From NCBI RefSeq assembly GCF_022763525.1, contig NZ_JALEGG010000007.1:1-64000 (forward strand): 64,000 nt of DNA, in the 5' to 3' direction. Below, piece by piece: positions 41,723 to 55,224 of the stretch. Both the position numbers and the translations under genes were made by a program. This DNA comes from Acidovorax sp. (GTDB lineage Bacteria > Pseudomonadota > Gammaproteobacteria > Burkholderiales > Burkholderiaceae_C). Below the pieces are notes generated by a model, which worked only from the letters and a program-made list of their open reading frames with translations, did no database searches and was not told the origin of the DNA. How positions within the stretch are numbered: position 1 is the stretch's first letter; each line of letters begins with the position of its first letter.

Positions 41723-43978
41723 TCAGAAGTCCACCGTGGCCGAAACCACCAGGGCCCGCGGGGCGCCTTGCACCAGGCTGCCGTATTGGGACACGCTGGC
41801 CCAGTAGGCGCGGTCCGCCGCGTTGCGCAGGTTGGCCCGGAAGGTGGTGGTCTTGCCCGCGATCAGCGTGCGGTAGCGCGCACCCAGGTCGAGCGTGGTC
41901 CACGCGGGGATGGCGAGCGTGTTGGCACGGTCCACGTACTGCTTGCCCGTGTGGGTGAGGCCACCGCTCAGCGCCAGGCCGGGCAGCCACGGCACGTCCC
42001 ATTCCAGGCCCAGGTTGGCTTGCACCGACGGAACGCCAATCGCCTTCCTGCCCTGCGTGGTGGCGCTGTTGGTGTGGGTCAGCACGCCTTGCAGCCAAGT
42101 GATGCCGCCCGTGACCGACACGCCGGGCGCCGCGCGGCCGCTGGTGTTGAGTTCGATGCCGCGGTTGCGCTGCTCGGCGTCCACCGCAAACAGGCCATTG
42201 GTCTGCTGGCCGCTGGGCTTGGTGATCTCGAACAGGCTCAGGGTGGTGACCATGCGGCCCCACTCGACCTTGGCGCCGATTTCCTTTTGCTTGGTCTTGT
42301 AGGGCGCGAACATCTCGCCTGCGTTGGTTGCGGTGGCCGGTGCGCTATCGCCCTTGCTGAGGCCTTCGATGTAGTTGGCGTAGAGCGAGACGTTGTTCTG
42401 CCAGGGTTTCACCACCAGGCCGGCCAGCGGTGTCACCGCGCTCTGGTCGTACGAAGAAGCCACCGCCCCCGTGGTGGCGTTGAAGTTGTCGGACTGCACG
42501 CGCTGGCGGCGCACGCCCAGCATCAGCTGTACCCGGTCATCCAGAAAGGACAGGTTGTCGGCCAGGGCCAGGCTGGACAGCTGTGTGTCCGACACCCGCA
42601 CCGCCTGGGGGCTGGTGACGTGTTGCGCCGGGCTGGTCACAGGGGCGTAGAGGTTGGACAGCACTGCTGTGCCGTTGACCGAGCCGCGTGCCAGGCGGTC
42701 GTTGTATGTGCTGGCTTGCAGCGTGACGGTGTGGCGCACCCCGCCCGTGGCGAATTGCGTGCGCAAGCCGGCGTCTGCGGTGCTGCGGTCCACCTCGAAG
42801 CGAAAGCGCTGCGGCAGCGTGCTGGTGTCGCCGCGCAGGTTCAGCAGTGTGGGGTTGCCAAAGAGCCGGTCCACGCGGCTGCGTCCGCCCCCGGCGTTGG
42901 CGAACACGGTGGTGCGATCGTCCAGGTCATATTCGGCGTGCAGCAGCAGGGAGCGGTCGGTGGTGTCGAACCACTCCCAGGGCTGGCTCACATTGCGCCG
43001 GCCGTCAGGGGCCCGGGGAACCGCCGTGGCGCCCGCGGCGAGGAAGGGGCGGCGCAGGGGCGCGTCCACGCTTTCCTTCTGGACGATGGCATCCAGAGTG
43101 GCGCGCAGCCGCTCGCCTTGGTAATCGAGCGCCAGCGCCCCCACGCCGGCCTTGCGCGACTGGTGGTCCAGCAGGGTGTCGCCTTGGTGGTGGCTGCCGT
43201 TGAAGCGCACGCCGAACTGGCGTTCGGGGCCGAAACGGCGGCTCACGTCGATCTGGCCGCCGCCCTGGGCGCCGGCGCCGAAGTCGGCGGACACGCGCGT
43301 CAACGGTGCGCCCGTCGCGCGCTTGGGCACGATGTTGATGGCGCCGCCCACGCTGCTGGCCGGGGACATGCCATAGAGCAGCGCGGCCGGCCCCTTGATG
43401 ATCTCGATGCGCTCGGCATAGTCGGCGAGCACGCGGTAGTTGGGCGCAACGCCATAGACTCCATCGAAAGCGATTTCGCCCGAGTTTTGGTCGCCCACCG
43501 GGAATCCGCGGATGAAGAACGAGTCGAGCTGGTCGCCCGGATGGCCGGAGAGGCGGACGGAGGAGTCGTTCCTCACGATGTCGGCCACCGTGACAGCCTG
43601 CTGGTCCTGCACCATCTGCGACGTGTAGCTGGCCGTGTTCAGTGGCGCATTCAGGACATCGGTGTTGCCCAGCAAGCCCAGCCGCGCGCCGCGTGCGGTG
43701 TGCCCGTTGCCCAGCGTGGTGGGCAGGACTGCAGCCTCGCCTTCCGCGGTGACGCGAACCTCGGGCAGCGAAGAGGGCAGGCCTTGAGCCGGTTGAGGTG
43801 CCGTGGTCTGGGCGAAGGCCGGCGCCAGGAACCCTGCAGTGACCAGGCCGCCGAGCGCGCGGCGGATGGCGACGGCCAGCGGCGAAAGCGCGGGTGCGCA
43901 GGCGCTGCGCGAGGACGAAGGCGATGAACAGGAAGAGCGCAAGGAGGGCTCGTAGCCCGGCAGGGTCGATGGCAGCAC
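41723..43978 (-). CDS. TonB-dependent siderophore receptor (start uncertain; ORF extends to 44071)
   Basis: Plug domain VTVADIVRNDSSVRLSGHPGDQLDSFFIRGFPVGDQNSGEIAFDGVYGVAPNYR...IEIIKGPAALLYGMSPASSVGGAINIVPKR; C-terminal ALVVSATVDF. Confidence 0.94.
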   Translation of the reverse strand: MLPSTLPGYEPSLRSSCSSPSSSRSACAPALSPLAVAIRRALGGLVTAGFLAPAFAQTTAPQPAQGLPSSLPEVRVTAEGEAAVLPTTLGNGHTARGARLGLLGNTDVLNAPLNTASYTSQMVQDQQAVTVADIVRNDSSVRLSGHPGDQLDSFFIRGFPVGDQNSGEIAFDGVYGVAPNYRVLADYAERIEIIKGPAALLYGMSPASSVGGAINIVPKRATGAPLTRVSADFGAGAQGGGQIDVSRRFGPERQFGVRFNGSHHQGDTLLDHQSRKAGVGALALDYQGERLRATLDAIVQKESVDAPLRRPFLAAGATAVPRAPDGRRNVSQPWEWFDTTDRSLLLHAEYDLDDRTTVFANAGGGRSRVDRLFGNPTLLNLRGDTSTLPQRFRFEVDRSTADAGLRTQFATGGVRHTVTLQASTYNDRLARGSVNGTAVLSNLYAPVTSPAQHVTSPQAVRVSDTQLSSLALADNLSFLDDRVQLMLGVRRQRVQSDNFNATTGAVASSYDQSAVTPLAGLVVKPWQNNVSLYANYIEGLSKGDSAPATATNAGEMFAPYKTKQKEIGAKVEWGRMVTTLSLFEITKPSGQQTNGLFAVDAEQRNRGIELNTSGRAAPGVSVTGGITWLQGVLTHTNSATTQGRKAIGVPSVQANLGLEWDVPWLPGLALSGGLTHTGKQYVDRANTLAIPAWTTLDLGARYRTLIAGKTTTFRANLRNAADRAYWASVSQYGSLVQGAPRALVVSATVDF

Positions 43979-44078
43979 AGTGAGAATCCTTGATGGGAAG
44001 GAGGCTGGCTGGCGTCGGCTGGCTGCGTCGGGCGACTGGGACAAAAGGCCCAGAAAGCGCGCGGGTTGCACACTATAA

Positions 44079-46175: not shown

Positions 46176-47768
46176 TCACGCCAGCCCACCGGCCGCCCAC
46201 AGCCGGGTGGCGTGCAGGCCCGCTGGCGTCCAGTGCAGGGCCGGCCCCATGGCGGCCACGAGAGCCGCGCGCCGAGCGTCGCCCGTCAACTGCGCCAGGC
46301 GCTCGTCCAACGCCACCCGGTCTGGATCGGACGCGTCATCGGCTGGCAGGCCCCCAGTTGATCGCCCGGCAGAACCGTGCATGCGCTGCAGTGCGCGAAA
46401 GCTGGGGCGGCGACCGCTCTGGTTGGCGGCGGCGGGCTCGAAGTACGCTTGGCCGTCCGCGCTGTCGGCACCGCGAATCCAGTCGTGGATCACCTGCAGC
46501 TCATAGGGGCTGAACACGCCGAACATCTCGGCACGCTCGCCCTGGAGCAGGTTCCACAGGCGGCTGTCCTGCGCCGGCTTGCCGTGTTGGATCCAGCCGC
46601 CGTCGGCCAGCGCCAGCAGGAACTCGCCCATGCGTTCGGGCTCGGCCAGCCATTGATTCACTGTTCGCCCGCCAATGCGCGCGTAGTCCGAATGGAGCCC
46701 GGCGCCCGCAGCGGCCTTGGCCTGGAAAATGCGCGTGGCCTCGGCGGCGGCGTCAAAGCTTTCGATCACGCTCACCGTGCCGCGTCCCACGCTGCCCAAC
46801 TGGCTGCCAGCCCGCACCCGTTGCCAGAAGGCCTGGCGCGCGTCGGCGTCGCCATCGCCGCGCGCGCCCGCAGGAGGCAGCATGTGCAGCACCGCATCGC
46901 AGGCTTGCCGTGCGTGACCGCTGTCGCTGTTGTCCACGGTCACATGCAGGGTGAAGTAGTACGGGTCGATGCCCAGTTCGTTGAGCTCGTAGGCCGTGAT
47001 CAGCAGGTGCAGCGGCAGCTGCTCATAGCCCAGGTTGAAGCCGATGATCTCCGGCAGGAATTCTTCAGCCGTCCATGCCAGCGCCAGCTGCATCAGGCCC
47101 TGCTCGTACAGGGCGTCGTCAGTGGGCAGGTCATCGGCCATGCCATGCCGGGCGAGCAGTTTTCGATACAGCGTGACGTGGTTCTTGTCGGCCTGGCCAT
47201 CACCCAGTTCTTCGAGGTAGGTGCGTACCAGCGGCGCCAGCCGGGGGTTGCCGCCGTGCGCCATCAGGCCATACAGCCAGGCACCGTCCACCAGCTTGGT
47301 GGGCGCGACCGAGCGCAGGAAATACAGCGCATGCGCGCGGTTGCTGAAATAACGGCGCGGTGCGCCGGCCCGGCGTTGCTGCAGATAGTCGGCATAGGCC
47401 TGCGCGGTCCGGGCGGCCTGTCCGCGCATCCAGGCATACAGATCGTCGGGCGATGCGGGCAAGTCGCATTCGTCCTGGGCCGTGCATGCCAGCGCACCAC
47501 GCACCCACGCAGCCGCTTCGGCCCGCGCTGCAGGGCTGGGCTCGGGCTGGGCGAGGCGCTGGTAGAGCGTTTGTAGCGGCCCGGGCGTCGGAGCGTGCGG
47601 CACGCGGAGCGCTCGGGCTTCCTCTTCTTGCGAGTTGCGATGGAGTGAGGTGAAGGTGCCGTCTGGCAGCGGCCGGTGCGCGAGGGCACAGACGCCGGGT
47701 GTGGGCTGGTCGGTGACCGGGCCGGTGGCTGGAGGTGCGGCCAATGTGGCAACGGCGTGAAGGCGCAT
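46176..47768 (-). CDS. Iron-containing redox enzyme family (haem-oxygenase-like diiron oxidase, HDO)
   Basis: LEELGDGQADKNHVTLYRKLLARHG ... FLPEIIGFNLGYEQLPLHLLITAYELNELGIDPYYFTLHVTVDNSDSGHARQACDAV with E/H/D ligand spacing typical of PF14518-like proteins. Confidence 0.82.
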   Translation of the reverse strand: MRLHAVATLAAPPATGPVTDQPTPGVCALAHRPLPDGTFTSLHRNSQEEEARALRVPHAPTPGPLQTLYQRLAQPEPSPAARAEAAAWVRGALACTAQDECDLPASPDDLYAWMRGQAARTAQAYADYLQQRRAGAPRRYFSNRAHALYFLRSVAPTKLVDGAWLYGLMAHGGNPRLAPLVRTYLEELGDGQADKNHVTLYRKLLARHGMADDLPTDDALYEQGLMQLALAWTAEEFLPEIIGFNLGYEQLPLHLLITAYELNELGIDPYYFTLHVTVDNSDSGHARQACDAVLHMLPPAGARGDGDADARQAFWQRVRAGSQLGSVGRGTVSVIESFDAAAEATRIFQAKAAAGAGLHSDYARIGGRTVNQWLAEPERMGEFLLALADGGWIQHGKPAQDSRLWNLLQGERAEMFGVFSPYELQVIHDWIRGADSADGQAYFEPAAANQSGRRPSFRALQRMHGSAGRSTGGLPADDASDPDRVALDERLAQLTGDARRAALVAAMGPALHWTPAGLHATRLWAAGGLA

Positions 47769-47878
47769 GGTGAAAGGCTTGGAAGCTTGGGAAGCAGCAG
47801 TGATGCCGATGTCCCATGGTCGGCTGGTGCTCGGCTTCGCCGCGCTGGCCGATGGCCCGAAACCGGGTCAGCAGACTC

Positions 47879-49276
47879 CTACGCCAGGTGGGTGCCCGGC
47901 GATTCGATCCAGCCCAGGCGCTGCAGGCGCGCCCATTCGCCCGCCAGCAGACGTTCGCCGATGTCGGTGCGGTAGCGCAGGTTGGGCACCAGCACCTGGC
48001 GTGCCAGGGCCACGGCGGCGTCGTTCGCGGTGGAGATGGCGTCACCCCGCCCCAGCGCCACGCCCAGGTAGCCGCAGGCGCCGCTGGCAACGAGCTGGCC
48101 GCCTTCTTCCAGCGCCACCTCGCCCCAGGCGATATCCGTGCGCTGTGCGTCGGTCATGCCGGGCCCAAGGAGGATGGGTGTGCCTTTGGAAAGCTCCGCA
48201 TAGCCCTGGCGGTAGGGAAATGGCGGCACGGTCAGCACCACGCCGGCCGCAAAGCCGCCCCGCGTGCCGAAGTTCAGCCGCTCTGCTGGCGGCGTCCTGT
48301 CGCTGTACGCCAGGCGCCGCAGCACCATGTCCCACGGGTCGGTGTGCAGCGCCCCGCAGATCGCAAAGCCGGGATAGCCAAAGCGGCTGGTGAACTCCAG
48401 CGGCCACAGCCCCTCTTCGTTGGCGATCAGGTTCACATTGATGTAGCCGCAGTAGCCGCCATCGCGCAGCACGGGTGCCAGCGGCGCCAGCGCTGCCCGG
48501 AACAGCCGCTCGCCGCCGCGGTAGGTGACGATGGTCCCCATCTCTCCGGTCAGCTCGCCCAGGTCGCCCGGGAAGAACCGCTTGTGCTCAAAGTCCATGC
48601 ACACGGGCTGCATGAATTGTTCGCCGTTGAAGTACGCCCCCACGCCCACTTCCACGCCTTCGAGGTGGTCCATGAGCACGTAGTCCACCTCATGGGCCGT
48701 TGTGGTGTCGAGGGTTGCGTGCGGGTCCGCGCCGGGGTTCGCGTCGCGGGCAGCTGCATGGTGTGCATAGCCCTGCAGCAGCGCGGCCACGTCGCTGCCA
48801 TCAGGCGCCTGGCCCACGTAGTTGCGGGTGCGTTCGCTTCCTGCGCCGTTGAACTTGAGCACCAGCCGGGCCGGCGCCCGCTCGATGTGCGCGATGCCCT
48901 CGGCATAGCTGGCAAACCGCGTGCACCGTGCCACGGGCAGGCCCGCGGCGCGCAGCACCTCCTGGCCAAAGCTGCGGTCGGCTTCGAGCCGGTCGCCCAG
49001 GGTGCTGCCGCCCACCACCCGAAAACCCTCGGCGCGCAAGGCGTCCTGCAGCGGGCCTTGCGTGGCAGATTCAAACAGTACCAGGCTCTCGCCAGAGCCC
49101 GCGGCGCGCAGCCAGCCCAGCTCCGCGCTCCAGTCCGGCACGCGTTGCAGCAGGCCGGCGTACACGTCGTGGCATGCCTCGTCACGAATGTAGACCTTCA
49201 CCTCGTGCCCATGCTCCTGCAGGGCCAGGTACATGGCGGCCAGGTCGTTGGTCTCGCCGATGCCCAGCACCCTCAT
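47879..49276 (-). CDS. ATP-grasp ligase, PurD-like
   Basis: MRVLGIGETNDLAAMYLALQEHGHEVKVYIRD; VLKFNGAGSERTRNYVG; GYINVNLIANEEGLWPLEFTSRFGYPG. Confidence 0.85.
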   Translation of the reverse strand: MRVLGIGETNDLAAMYLALQEHGHEVKVYIRDEACHDVYAGLLQRVPDWSAELGWLRAAGSGESLVLFESATQGPLQDALRAEGFRVVGGSTLGDRLEADRSFGQEVLRAAGLPVARCTRFASYAEGIAHIERAPARLVLKFNGAGSERTRNYVGQAPDGSDVAALLQGYAHHAAARDANPGADPHATLDTTTAHEVDYVLMDHLEGVEVGVGAYFNGEQFMQPVCMDFEHKRFFPGDLGELTGEMGTIVTYRGGERLFRAALAPLAPVLRDGGYCGYINVNLIANEEGLWPLEFTSRFGYPGFAICGALHTDPWDMVLRRLAYSDRTPPAERLNFGTRGGFAAGVVLTVPPFPYRQGYAELSKGTPILLGPGMTDAQRTDIAWGEVALEEGGQLVASGACGYLGVALGRGDAISTANDAAVALARQVLVPNLRYRTDIGERLLAGEWARLQRLGWIESPGTHLA

Positions 49277-50298
49277 GCTGCGGGCCTTTGCACCACCATG
49301 CCCACAGCGGCAATGCGCTCGGCGCAGACGTAGGCGGGTGCGTCCAGTTCCTCGCCGAAGACATCCGGGTCGAGTTCGCCGTAGGCCATGGGCCAGCCGC
49401 GCGCGCGCACGATCGCCGCCAGACTCTCGCGCAGCGGATCGCGGCCGCGCACCATGGCCGCGCCCGTGTAAAGCACCAGACGGCCGCCGGGCCGCAGGAA
49501 GTCGAGTCCCTCGCGCACGATGCGCTCCGACAGCTCGCCACCCAGCGCACCGCCGCCGTGCCGGTAGGTGCGCGATGCACCGTCCACCAGGTAGGGCGGG
49601 TTGGCAACGATCAGGTCATAGGTTCCTTCGATGCCTGCGTACAGATCCGTGGTCACGCACTGCGCCTGGGGTAGGCCCGCCAGCAGGGCGTTGGCCTGGG
49701 CATGCGCCAGGGCGCGGCCGTTGATGTCGGCCAGCACGATGGATGCGGGCGGCACGCCTCGCTCCAGTGCCAGCGTGGCCGCCAGCAACCCGCCGGGGCC
49801 GCCGCCGCAGCCCATGTCCAGGATGTGCGCCGCACGGGGCAGGGGCGCCAGGCGCAGTGTTTCGGTGATCAGCGAGGCAAAGCGGTAGGTGTCGGGGCCG
49901 AAAAAAACCGCGTCGGCCGCCGTCGTCGGGTAAGCCGAATGGGAAATGAGCAGGCCATCCAGCGTGCTCCAGCGCACGGTGCTGCGCCACGCGCCGCCAG
50001 CCCCGTCCTCCACAACGATGCCCGCCTGCAACAGCCGCTGGCCGAGAGCGTGGGGGAGGAGTGTGGGGGCGAAAGGCCGGCTCCAGCCAAACGCGTCGCG
50101 CTCGTCGGCGTCTTGCACTGCGCGGTGGCGAGCGAGGATCCGCTGGTGGGTGAGGGGCGTGACAGTGATGAAACGGTAGGCCCGGCTTTGCAGCCAGCGG
50201 CCCAGGTCCAGCAGCTCCGCGGGGCCGGGCAGGGCGGGGGGGGGTGGTGGGCGGAGCGAACTGGCGGCTTCCCGCAAGACGGGTGAAATGCTGGACAT
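49273..50298 (-). CDS. Class I SAM-dependent methyltransferase, PrmC/HemK-like (start uncertain; ORF to 50364)
   Basis: HILDMGCGGGPGGLLAATLALE, YDLIVANPPYLVDGASRTYRHGGGALGGELSERIV. Confidence 0.88.
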   Translation of the reverse strand: MSSISPVLREAASSLRPPPPPALPGPAELLDLGRWLQSRAYRFITVTPLTHQRILARHRAVQDADERDAFGWSRPFAPTLLPHALGQRLLQAGIVVEDGAGGAWRSTVRWSTLDGLLISHSAYPTTAADAVFFGPDTYRFASLITETLRLAPLPRAAHILDMGCGGGPGGLLAATLALERGVPPASIVLADINGRALAHAQANALLAGLPQAQCVTTDLYAGIEGTYDLIVANPPYLVDGASRTYRHGGGALGGELSERIVREGLDFLRPGGRLVLYTGAAMVRGRDPLRESLAAIVRARGWPMAYGELDPDVFGEELDAPAYVCAERIAAVGMVVQRPAA

Positions 50299-50404
50299 GG
50301 CTGGGGCGTTGTGTACCTCTGCATGGTCCAGCGGCCAAGTGTGCGCCGCTGTAGGACGCGGCATGCGGCGGCTGTCGGTGCCCGCGGCGGCCCGCCGCGC
50401 AGGA

Positions 50405-50764
50405 TCAGAGGCGTTCCTTGACGTACGAGCCGCGGTCCATGTCCACCACCTCCACGCTCAGGTGGATCGCCACGCCCTGCGGGCGGGGCGTGCGCTCGCG
50501 CAGCACGGCGGCAATGGCTTCGGAGAGCTCCTTCTTGGCCTGGGGCGTGCGGCCTGCCAGCAAGCGCAGCTGGGCATGCACAAAGGCGCGCTGGGCGGGT
50601 GCCGTGCCCATCTCGAAGCTGTCGGCCACGATGAAGCGGGTCTTCAAGTCGACTTCGTCCTGGATCTCCGGGTGGGCGCACAGCGCCGCATTCAGCGCGG
50701 TGAGGGTTTCGGCCTCCGGGTAGTGGGGCAGGTTGGCGGTGTATTCAATGGTGAGATGGGGCAT
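50405..50764 (-). CDS. 5-carboxymethyl-2-hydroxymuconate isomerase family protein
   Basis: MPHLTIEYTANL...RFIVADSFEMGTAPAQRAFVHAQLRLLAGRTPQAKKELSEAI. Confidence 0.85.
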   Translation of the reverse strand: MPHLTIEYTANLPHYPEAETLTALNAALCAHPEIQDEVDLKTRFIVADSFEMGTAPAQRAFVHAQLRLLAGRTPQAKKELSEAIAAVLRERTPRPQGVAIHLSVEVVDMDRGSYVKERL

Positions 50765-50856
50765 GGTAGGGGTCCAGTCGGGTCGCTGCGATTCAATGCG
50801 CCTCGAAGCCCCGGGGGGGCGCAAGCAACCCCTGGGCCGTCAATGGCACCGTGCAG

Positions 50857-51962: not shown

Positions 51963-53228
51963 TCACGCAATTGCAGCTGACGGGGCGCTGGTGCCTGTGG
52001 CTTGCTCCGGGCGGGCACCGATGCAGTCGGCCGCATGGGCGGCGAGTGCGAGCAGCAATTCCTGCACGTCCGACTCTGTGTGCGCGGCCGACAGCGCAAT
52101 GCGCAGCCGGGCCGTGCCTGGGGGCACCGTCGGCGGGCGGATGGCGGGCACCCACAGGCCCCGCTGGCGCAGGCTTTCCATCACGGCCAGCGCCGCTTCG
52201 TTGCTGCCGATCACCAGCGCCTGCACGGCCGTGTGGGACGGCAGCAAGCGCCAGCCCAGCTGCGGGGGCAGTTCGGCCAGGCCGTTGCGCAGTTGCGCAA
52301 TGCGCTGGCGCAGCCCTTCGCGCAGGTCGTCTGCCGCAGCGATCAGCGCCAGGCTGGTGCGCAAGGCGCTCGCCAGCAGCGGCGGCGCGGCCGTGGCAAA
52401 GATGTAGGTGCGGGTTTTTTGCAGCAGCCACTCAATGATGGCGGCATCACCCGCCACAAAGGCGCCTGCCACGCCCGCGGCCTTGCCCAGCGTGGCCATG
52501 TACAGCACGCGGCGCGAGGCATTGGCACCCGTCAGGCCTGCCTGCGCTAGGCTGCCGCGCCCCTGAGGGCCCAGCACGCCAAAGCCATGGGCGTCGTCCA
52601 GCAGCAGCAGCGCGTCGTAGCGCTCGCACAGAGCGAGCAGTGCGGGGATGTCGATCAGGTCGCCGTCCATGCTGAACACGGCGTCGCTGATCACCAGCTT
52701 GCGGTGTGCCGGGCTGGCGGCCAGCTGCGCCTCCAGCGCGGCCAGGTCGGCATGCGGATAGCGGTGGATGGTGGCGCGTGACAGGCGAGCGCCGTCGATG
52801 AGGCAGGCGTGGTTCAGCGCATCGGAGAAGATCGCATCTCCATCGCCCACCAGCGCGGGGATGATGCCGCTGTTGGTGGCGTAGCCCGCGTAGAAGTACA
52901 GCGCACGGGGCAACTGCACGAAGGCGGCCAGTTCGTGCTCCAGCGCATCATTGGCTGCGCTGTGGCCGCTGACCAGCGGCGATCCGCCCGAGCCCACGCC
53001 AAAAGTGTGCGTGGCTTCGCGGGCGGCCTGGGCCAGCGCCGGGTGGCCGGCCCGGCCCAGGTAGTCGTTGTTGCAAAACGCGAGCATGGACTGCCCGTCC
53101 ACCCGCAGGCGGGCGCCGCCTTCGGGCTGCACCACGCGGCGGCGGCGCAGCAGGTGGGCGCGCTCGATGTCGGCCAGGCGCTGCGGCATCTCGTCGAGCC
53201 AGGAAGCGGTGTGGAGATCTTGGGTCAT
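51963..53228 (-). CDS. bioF: 8-amino-7-oxononanoate synthase
   Basis: FCNNDYLGRAGHPAL, FGVGSGGSPLVSGHSAANDALE, DDAHGFGVLGPQGRGSL. Confidence 0.96.
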   Translation of the reverse strand: MTQDLHTASWLDEMPQRLADIERAHLLRRRRVVQPEGGARLRVDGQSMLAFCNNDYLGRAGHPALAQAAREATHTFGVGSGGSPLVSGHSAANDALEHELAAFVQLPRALYFYAGYATNSGIIPALVGDGDAIFSDALNHACLIDGARLSRATIHRYPHADLAALEAQLAASPAHRKLVISDAVFSMDGDLIDIPALLALCERYDALLLLDDAHGFGVLGPQGRGSLAQAGLTGANASRRVLYMATLGKAAGVAGAFVAGDAAIIEWLLQKTRTYIFATAAPPLLASALRTSLALIAAADDLREGLRQRIAQLRNGLAELPPQLGWRLLPSHTAVQALVIGSNEAALAVMESLRQRGLWVPAIRPPTVPPGTARLRIALSAAHTESDVQELLLALAAHAADCIGARPEQATGTSAPSAAIA

Positions 53229-53896
53229 CGCCATTCCAGGGGGAGTTCGAACGCCAGGCCGTGCGCGTCGGGCAGATCCTGGTAAGGCACCTCGGCCAGC
53301 AAGGGGGCGCCCAGGCGCGCGCGCAGGTAGGCAATGTTCTCGTCGGCGGCTTCCATGGCTGGGTCCACGCGATTGGCGACCCAGCCCGCCAGCGTGAGGC
53401 CGCGCGCGCGAATGGCCTCGGCCGTCAGCAACGCATGGTTCAGGCAGCCCAGGCGCAGGCCCACTACCAGCACCACCGGCAGGGCCAGCGCCTGGGCCAG
53501 GTCGGCGCCGGTTTGCGTGTCGGTCAGCGGCACCAGAAAGCCGCCAGCCCCTTCGACCACCACGGCATCGGCCTGGGCCGCCAGCGCCTGGTAGCTGCGC
53601 ACGATGGCGGCAATGTCGATCTCCACCCCGGCCCGGGCAGCGGCGATGTGGGGCGACAGCGGGTCGGACAGCAGCACGGGGTTGTCCAGTTCGGGCGCCA
53701 CGGCCACCGTGGAAGCCGAGCGCAGCGCGACCGCGTCCTCGCTGGCCCAGTCGTCCCCCCAGGGTACGAGCCCGGCGGCCACGGGCTTCATGCCCACCAC
53801 GCGCGCGTGGTGGCGTGCCAGCGTATACAGCAGGCCGGCAGATACCAGCGTCTTGCCGACACCCGTGTCGGTGCCGGTCACAAAACATCCCATCAT
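53225..53896 (-). CDS. bioD: ATP-dependent dethiobiotin synthetase
   Basis: CFVTGTDTGVGKTLVSAGLL...VVVEGAGGFLVPL. Confidence 0.96.
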   Translation of the reverse strand: MMGCFVTGTDTGVGKTLVSAGLLYTLARHHARVVGMKPVAAGLVPWGDDWASEDAVALRSASTVAVAPELDNPVLLSDPLSPHIAAARAGVEIDIAAIVRSYQALAAQADAVVVEGAGGFLVPLTDTQTGADLAQALALPVVLVVGLRLGCLNHALLTAEAIRARGLTLAGWVANRVDPAMEAADENIAYLRARLGAPLLAEVPYQDLPDAHGLAFELPLEWR

Positions 53897-55224
53897 CCGT
53901 GTGGTTCCTCTTGCAGGGTTGCGTTCAGCGCAGCGAGCGCGCCGCTGGCGAGGCACTGCACGGCCTCGTCGTCGAGCGCATAGGGCGGCATGGCGTACAG
54001 CGTCTTGCCGATGGGCCGCAGCACCAGCCCCCGCGCCATGGCGTGTTGGTGGTAGCGGCGTGAAAAGTCGGGCAGGGGGGTGTCCACATCCCAGGCCCAG
54101 ATCATCCCCAGCCGCCGCGCATGCCGCACGCGCGGGTGCTGTGCCAGGGGGGCACAGGCCGCGTCAATGCGCTGCGCGAGCGCCTGATTGGCGTTCAGCG
54201 CGTCCAGCTGGTCAAAAAGTTCCAGCGTGGCCAGCGCAGCGCGGCAGGCCAGCGGGTTGCCGGTGTACGAGTGCGAATGCAGGAAGCCGCGCGCCACGTC
54301 ATCGTCGTAGAACGCGGCATATACCGCATCGGTGGTGAGCACGGCCGACAAGGGCAGCGTGCCGCCGGTGAGGCCTTTGGAAAGACAGATGAAATCCGGC
54401 CGGATGCCTGCCTGCTGGTGCGCGAACATCGTGCCCGTGCGGCCAAAGCCCACAGCGATCTCGTCCACCACCAGATGCACCTCGTAGCGGCTGCACAGCG
54501 CGCGGGCCCGGCGCAGGTATTCCGGGTCGTGCATCGCCATGCCGGCGGCGCATTGCACGAGTGGCTCCACGATGAGTGCGGCCGTGGTTTCGTGGTGCTC
54601 GGCCAGCCAGGCCTCCAGCGCCGCAGCAGCGCGCAGGGCCGCGTCCTGTGCGTTCTCGCCGGGCGCGGCGCTGCGTGCATCCGGGCTGGGCACGGTCGCG
54701 GCCAGGCGCACCAGCGGGGCATAGGCCTCGCGGAAGATGGCGATGTCTGTCACCGCCAGCGCGCCCACGGTTTCACCGTGGTAGCCGCCCGCCAGGCCTA
54801 CGAAGCGGCTCTTGGCGGGACGGCCAGTGTTGCGCCAGTAGTGCGCGCTCATCTTCAGGGCGATCTCGGTGGCGGCTGCGCCGTCGCTGCCGTAGAACGC
54901 ATGGCCCAGGCCGGTGAGGGCGCCAAGGCGCTCGGACAGCTCCACCACGGGCGCATGGGTAAAGCCCGCCAGCATCACGTGGTCCAGCTGGCCCAACTGC
55001 TCCACCAGCGCGGCCTGGATGTGCGGGTGGCTGTGGCCGAACAGGTTGACCCACCAGGAGCTGATTGCGTCGAGGTATCGCTGGCCGTCGGTGCCATAGA
55101 GCCAAGGGCCTTGCGCGCGGGCGATGGCCACGGGTGGCTGGGCCTCGTGCCGCTTCATCTGCGTGCATGGGTGCCAGACGCTGGCGACGCTGCGGGCCAC
55201 GAGCCCGTCGTGCAGGGGCTGCAT
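53893..55224 (-). CDS. bioA: Adenosylmethionine-8-amino-7-oxononanoate aminotransferase
   Basis: SVWHPCTQMKRHEAQPPVAI...DAISSWWVNLFGHSHPHI...LSKGLTGGTLPLSAVLT. Confidence 0.96.
   Translation of the reverse strand: MQPLHDGLVARSVASVWHPCTQMKRHEAQPPVAIARAQGPWLYGTDGQRYLDAISSWWVNLFGHSHPHIQAALVEQLGQLDHVMLAGFTHAPVVELSERLGALTGLGHAFYGSDGAAATEIALKMSAHYWRNTGRPAKSRFVGLAGGYHGETVGALAVTDIAIFREAYAPLVRLAATVPSPDARSAAPGENAQDAALRAAAALEAWLAEHHETTAALIVEPLVQCAAGMAMHDPEYLRRARALCSRYEVHLVVDEIAVGFGRTGTMFAHQQAGIRPDFICLSKGLTGGTLPLSAVLTTDAVYAAFYDDDVARGFLHSHSYTGNPLACRAALATLELFDQLDALNANQALAQRIDAACAPLAQHPRVRHARRLGMIWAWDVDTPLPDFSRRYHQHAMARGLVLRPIGKTLYAMPPYALDDEAVQCLASGALAALNATLQEEPHG

Follow-up and report, generated by a model that had tools for sequence, protein, structure and literature searches.

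A candidate small-molecule biosynthetic cassette in Acidovorax built around a haem-oxygenase-like oxygenase and a methyltransferase

We analyzed a three-gene cassette in a 64-kb window of an Acidovorax sp. genome (the whole stretch of 64,000 nucleotides from contig NZ_JALEGG010000007.1). Three open reading frames on the minus strand encode, in order, an S-adenosylmethionine (SAM)-dependent methyltransferase (MT; 49273-50364, 363 aa), a PurD-superfamily ATP-grasp ligase (47879-49276, 465 aa), and HDO1, a haem-oxygenase-like dimetal oxygenase (HDO; 46176-47768, 530 aa), which agrees in the sharing of one strand, gene order, and HDO length with a preliminary description of this locus. MT and the ligase share a 4-bp start/stop overlap (49273-49276, minus strand) indicative of translational coupling; this overlap, also noted in that description, is real and recurs in most loci that hold all three genes, with the same arrangement in L023, L031, L035, L036, L041, L042, and L048. 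The 110-bp gap between the ligase and HDO1 (47769-47878, minus strand) yielded neither a terminator nor a sigma-70 consensus when scanned for both. Because homology begins near residue 47, an MT start at 50298 is as plausible as the one at 50364. Pfam places HDO1 in PF14518 (E 1.2e-30), assigns GARS_A and GARS_C domains to the ligase (PF01071 match, E 7.4e-9), and assigns an MTS domain to MT (PF05175 match, E 2.6e-15).

HDO1 is the sole PF14518 match in the Acidovorax genome, and its score of 107.1 bits against a curated cut-off of 28.9 bears out the earlier assignment to the haem-oxygenase-like diiron family; the motifs EELGDGQ, FLPEIIGFN, YELNELGIDPYY, and DNSDSGHA attributed to it are present in the translation. 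The protein comprises about 45 disordered N-terminal residues, a helical N-domain, the PF14518 core (residues 149-321), and a mostly helical C-terminal region of about 210 residues. Conservation points to six candidate diiron ligands, E187, H197, E249, H275, D279, and H285 (three histidines and three carboxylates; 46914-47210, minus strand), which are invariant in all 37 homologues compared and in 15 of 15 sequences of a wider HDO1 set, and which align with HrmI in a profile alignment. The preliminary description had proposed a structural model of this protein; the AlphaFold model (predicted local distance difference test, pLDDT, 85.5; predicted template modeling score 0.85) is of a haem-oxygenase-like helical bundle, with HrmI as its top Foldseek match (probability 1.00 but E 0.011, template modeling score 0.54 on the target), followed among HDOs by BesC, FlcD, and PolF with weak E values (0.011 and above). 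A joint profile of HDO1 and HDO2, a second HDO that also adjoins members of this MT family, matched the solved structures of HrmI (E 3.2e-12), SznF (9e-6), 9pfw (9e-4), and RohS (0.025), and the window's HDO1 protein alone matched 9pfw best (E 0.0044).

Some relatives of HDO1 differ from it in ligands or domain order. A second HDO copy in genome G553 (L147) is 34% identical to HDO1 and has lost H197 and H285; judged from its residues, this paralogue looks like a non-metal-binding pseudo-enzyme, so ligand loss does occur, but outside the main HDO1 family. At L159 in genome G448, a reverse-strand protein of about 736 aa carries its HDO domain after a region resembling the C-terminal part of HDO1, and this order suggests that the C-terminal region may be a movable domain; a NodU-type carbamoyltransferase gene, recognized by eye, follows it. 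Residues 335-395 or so of HDO1 itself have a weak, non-significant similarity to MarR winged-helix proteins (E 0.12).

The labels PrmC-like and PurD-like that the preliminary description gave to the other two enzymes do not hold as functions. MT scores 60.7 bits against NCBIfam PrmC, far under the cut-off of 199.1, and PrmC was therefore rejected as its functional label. Its NPPY motif (N255-Y258) is invariant in 16 of 16 sequences. The closest folds to its AlphaFold model (pLDDT 85.9) in Foldseek were GenN (1e-15), AerE (2e-13), RsmC (3e-11), the carbamoyl N-methyltransferase Asc-Orf2 (2e-10), and PrmC (4e-10), and the GenN and AerE alignments (306-349 columns) covered the N-terminal accessory domain too. 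As modeled, MT is a GenN/AerE-like class I fold with an N-terminal accessory domain, and N-methyl transfer is predicted. AerE and PoyE methylate asparagine side-chain amides (PMC11285071). Although GenN, the gentamicin N-methyltransferase, and AerE/PoyE are the best fold matches, MT is only about 20% identical to them, and we recognized no aminoglycoside genes or precursor peptide beside the cassette.

The ligase belongs to the same ATP-grasp superfamily as PurD (phosphoribosylamine-glycine ligase), to which it is about 28% identical, and its profile matched PurD structures at 2.9e-31. Its score against NCBIfam PurD, however, is 71.8 bits, far below the cut-off of 288. The ATP-binding K141 and the metal-type glutamate E294 are conserved in 12 of 12 sequences and align with PurD, whereas the GGREHA phosphoribosylamine loop is lost, EFN with its magnesium-ligand asparagine has become EFT, and GDPE has become GYPG; the roles given here to the loop, asparagine, lysine, and glutamate are those generally ascribed to them in PurD. 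Since these motifs are lost, a different amine and a different acid are expected. We rejected PurD as a functional label because of the low score and the replaced active-site motifs, and regard the protein, from its domains together with K141 and E294, as a putative ATP-grasp amide ligase. A separate PurD-like gene lies on a different contig of the Acidovorax genome.

We followed the three genes through 201 genomes of the family, 399 genomes of the phylum, and a scan of 84,980 species genomes. Among the family genomes, 12 had strong HDO matches, 6 had the cassette MT, and 2 had the cassette ligase, of which genome G110 retains a remnant in addition; other ATP-grasp matches were about 24-31% identical, and those inspected were PurD genes. 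The species scan gave 33 HDO loci; where the organism was named, it mostly belonged to Comamonadaceae. Ten of these 33 have MT, ligase, and HDO in the same order, most with the MT/ligase overlap; four more have ligase and HDO (two of them end at a contig edge before any MT could appear), two have MT and HDO, in one further locus MT runs the other way, and the remainder have HDO without an intact MT or ligase nearby. HDO occurred in 17 and MT in 18 of the phylum genomes, with both in 15 (Fisher p 1.8e-22, kinship ignored), and the cassette ligase occurred in one, the window's own. Co-conservation, on which the preliminary description had made its reading depend, holds for HDO and MT but not for the trio, and the trio as an obligate unit was rejected, given the rarity of the ligase and how common HDO-only loci are. 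In most gammaproteobacterial loci, the order is opposite to that in Comamonadaceae: an HDO 42-51% identical to HDO1 lies directly upstream of MT, and in L118 the two overlap by 4 bp. Retention of the pair in both orders speaks for a function in common. HDO and MT form the conserved core, to which the ligase is a Comamonadaceae-level addition.

Partial loci were also seen. In genome G110, fragments of the cassette ligase directly follow an intact MT (L081, 6179-6602) with a Ku gene nearby, and the HDO is on another contig than MT and the ligase remnant; the HDO of L047 is truncated.

Where the MT family occurs without HDO1, another oxygenase usually adjoins it. HDO2, which alone matches HrmI at E 5.9e-28, adjoins MT in L077, L078, and L124, and a YqcI/YcgG protein (PF08892, 4.3e-52) does so in L120; no oxygenase was recognized adjoining MT in L121 or L123. 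In the MT tree, members with HDO2-type partners and gammaproteobacterial members with HDO1 or YcgG partners form separate supported groups. The YqcI/YcgG family is reported to hydroxylate guanidine N-H groups (PMC12866846); such haem N-hydroxylases (e.g., AglA) take the oxygenase position beside MT in L120, but they are haem enzymes of an unrelated family and are not in the window's cassette. The L120 row consists of the YqcI/YcgG gene, MT, and a gene that by eye resembles the EgtD histidine methyltransferase.

Ligase genes also differ among these loci. In L108, MT is followed after 6 bp by a GCS2-type gene, an identity that rests on a 49% match to an L118 protein assigned to PF04107 by Pfam; L112, L113, L117, and L118 carry such a gene immediately upstream of HDO but on the opposite strand, and in L077 a putative ATP-grasp gene overlaps MT. 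That differing ligases share a bond-forming role suggests a product that contains an amide bond, and lineages with HDO and MT alone imply that the ligase can be dispensed with or has its gene at another place in the genome.

We propose, at a probability of about one half, that the cassette is an operon for the biosynthesis of a small molecule, with an N-oxygenase (HDO1) and a SAM-dependent N-methyltransferase at its core and an amide ligase as an optional part. With O2 and a diiron center, HDO1 would N-hydroxylate an amino-acid-like substrate at a side-chain amine or a guanidine-type nitrogen, MT would methylate a nitrogen of the substrate or product, and in this lineage the ligase would couple the intermediate to a second building block through an amide (carboxylate-amine) bond. 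We infer this chemistry, its substrate, and the order of its steps from what was observed, namely gene order, protein families, conservation of ligand-type residues, HDO-MT co-occurrence, and partner exchange. The evidence favors N-oxygenation with N-methylation over C-C cleavage or decarboxylation, mainly because the alternative partners of MT are an HrmI homologue and a YqcI/YcgG protein.

Characterized N-oxygenases offer partial parallels. HDO1 shares with the lysine N6-oxygenases HrmI and BelK a PF14518-type fold and aligned E, H, E, H, D, and H positions, HrmI is its top fold match, and HDO2, which partners members of that MT family, is clearly homologous to HrmI; HDO1 is, however, about 170 residues longer and has a C-terminal region that lies beyond the HrmI alignment. 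The SznE/SznF pair of streptozotocin biosynthesis, an arginine N-methyltransferase with an HDO N-hydroxylase, follows the same logic, and SznF is the weak match to the joint profile given above; HDO1, though, lacks a cupin domain, and the cassette has an amide ligase. No characterized product was found in the literature for the cassette, nor for HDO, ATP-grasp, and methyltransferase genes combined, and the earlier view of a compact operon outside known pathways stands across the families, structures, and papers searched.

Several observations weigh against this proposal. HDO1 by itself resembles solved N-oxygenases weakly, with HrmI, RohS, and SznF as its best relatives: a profile built without HDO2 gave non-significant matches to HrmI (E 0.063) and SznF (1.1), besides the Foldseek value of 0.011, and the alpha-3 motif has three extra residues before its last histidine relative to HrmI and SznF. 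HDOs with near-identical ligand sets run different reactions (PMC13108848), so the ligand set alone is no predictor of chemistry. Many loci have HDO1 without MT and without the ligase, and such loci indicate that HDO1 can act without either. Additionally, the ligase of L077 and L078 was recognized by eye, Pfam giving no match for the L078 homologue, and the cassette is accompanied by no conserved transporter or regulator.

The foremost alternative, which we consider unlikely, is that a small peptide assembled by the ligase undergoes C-H chemistry at the HDO (desaturation, alkyne formation, C-C scission, or decarboxylation), as in mangotoxin biosynthesis, with MT capping the product. Clusters of HDO and ATP-grasp genes are already a recognized class, with at least 25 reported and MboA characterized; the mangotoxin MboA/MboC/MboD enzymes are an established pathway of this type in a compact operon, and in MboA, too, the last two alpha-3 ligands, D176 and H181, are spaced further apart (PMC13185094). 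MboA, however, makes an alkyne with a redox partner, MboB, and no MboB-like partner is in the cassette; no methyltransferase is mentioned for the mangotoxin system (PMC13185094), and the cassette ligase is PurD-like. Moreover, the solved sequence relatives of HDO1 are N-oxygenases rather than MboA, UndA, PolF, or AetD, BesC matches only with HDO2 included (0.0018), the exchanged partners are HrmI-like and YqcI/YcgG proteins, and most HDO1 loci are without an ATP-grasp gene, all of which speaks against this alternative.

We found stress-type genes near HDO or MT at a number of loci, including katE, Ku/LigD, hemerythrin, GlgE, GalU, KGG repeats, and trehalose-6-phosphate synthase. At least one such marker was present in 7 of 17 phylum windows (p 0.002), 12 of 38 family windows (p 0.003), and all 4 plasmid or Acinetobacter baumannii windows, against 2 of 40 random windows from the same genomes; the markers were chosen after the neighborhoods had been seen, the windows span wide regions, and closely related loci are among those counted, so this stress-gene context is suggestive only. 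One or both of Ku and LigD occur in 8 of 26 long Comamonadaceae-type windows, and katE is found in L112, in L039, and on Acinetobacter plasmids. An HDO1 homologue without MT lies beside catalase, DUF421, and trehalose-6-phosphate synthase genes on the Acinetobacter plasmids L182 and L184 and in the A. baumannii record L183, where katE is immediately downstream of it. The window's own cassette is not flanked by genes of this kind.

This context could instead mean that the genes form a stress-induced enzyme set that modifies a primary metabolite (an amine, arginine derivative, or gamma-glutamyl compound) or a protein alongside catalase, non-homologous end joining, and trehalose/glucan genes, with no secreted product. 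The marker counts, the A. baumannii and plasmid arrangements, and the lack of a conserved transporter fit this account, which overlaps with our proposal, the main difference being the product's site of action. We hold it to be rather doubtful, given the post hoc choice of markers, the dissimilar neighbors of the window's own cassette, and a patchy spread (12 of 201 family genomes) that is easier to reconcile with an accessory, dispensable pathway than with core metabolism.

A siderophore or metallophore pathway is very improbable: a TonB siderophore receptor (41723-44071; TIGR01783, 351 bits) lies 2.1 kb from the cassette, and hydroxylamine or hydroxamate chemistry can bind metals, but the two are separated by pabB, which is oppositely oriented, and relatives do not keep the receptor nearby, the TonB proteins seen in a few of their windows being only 23-26% identical. 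The link to an iron-acquisition operon drawn in the preliminary description was rejected on these grounds. Chance adjacency or decay of three genes outside one pathway is just as improbable, for although many loci are without one or two members and the G110 ligase fragments, truncated L047 HDO, and ligand-depleted L147 are on record, the trio keeps its order at 10 of 33 loci, mostly with the same overlap, HDO and MT co-occur far beyond expectation (p 1.8e-22), and the ligands are invariant in 37 of 37.

On the same strand as MT and 40 bp upstream of it is a CHMI-like gene (50405-50824), possibly co-transcribed with MT in the Acidovorax genome; it was not found beside any relative, and the TonB receptor, pabB, and carbonic anhydrase genes are likewise not conserved near relatives. 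Across the HDO loci, no other neighbor gene is conserved. The biotin genes bioF, bioD, and bioA (51963-55224, minus strand), identified by eye, are near the cassette, with no sign of a link to it.

Three features seem to be novel: HDO and MT as a core, the swapping of both oxygenases and ligases around a single MT family, and the recurrence of stress genes nearby. From the neighbors that recur, a role of the product in survival of stationary phase or stress seems likelier than one in iron uptake. More tentatively, and as a possibility that we would not expect to hold in full, HDO1, HDO2, or a YqcI/YcgG protein with one MT family may form a widespread plug-in module that, with unrelated amide ligases, makes an N-oxidized, N-methylated stress metabolite, neither antibiotic nor siderophore, within the stationary-phase or desiccation program of pseudomonads, Acinetobacter, and Comamonadaceae. 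If so, one MT family would mark a hidden class of N-oxidized metabolites in common environmental and clinical genera, and the MT gene would be a handle to find them whichever oxygenase or ligase is used. The pathway, at three enzymes, would be small enough for reconstitution in vitro and would test whether bacterial stress islands hold dedicated small-molecule chemistry.

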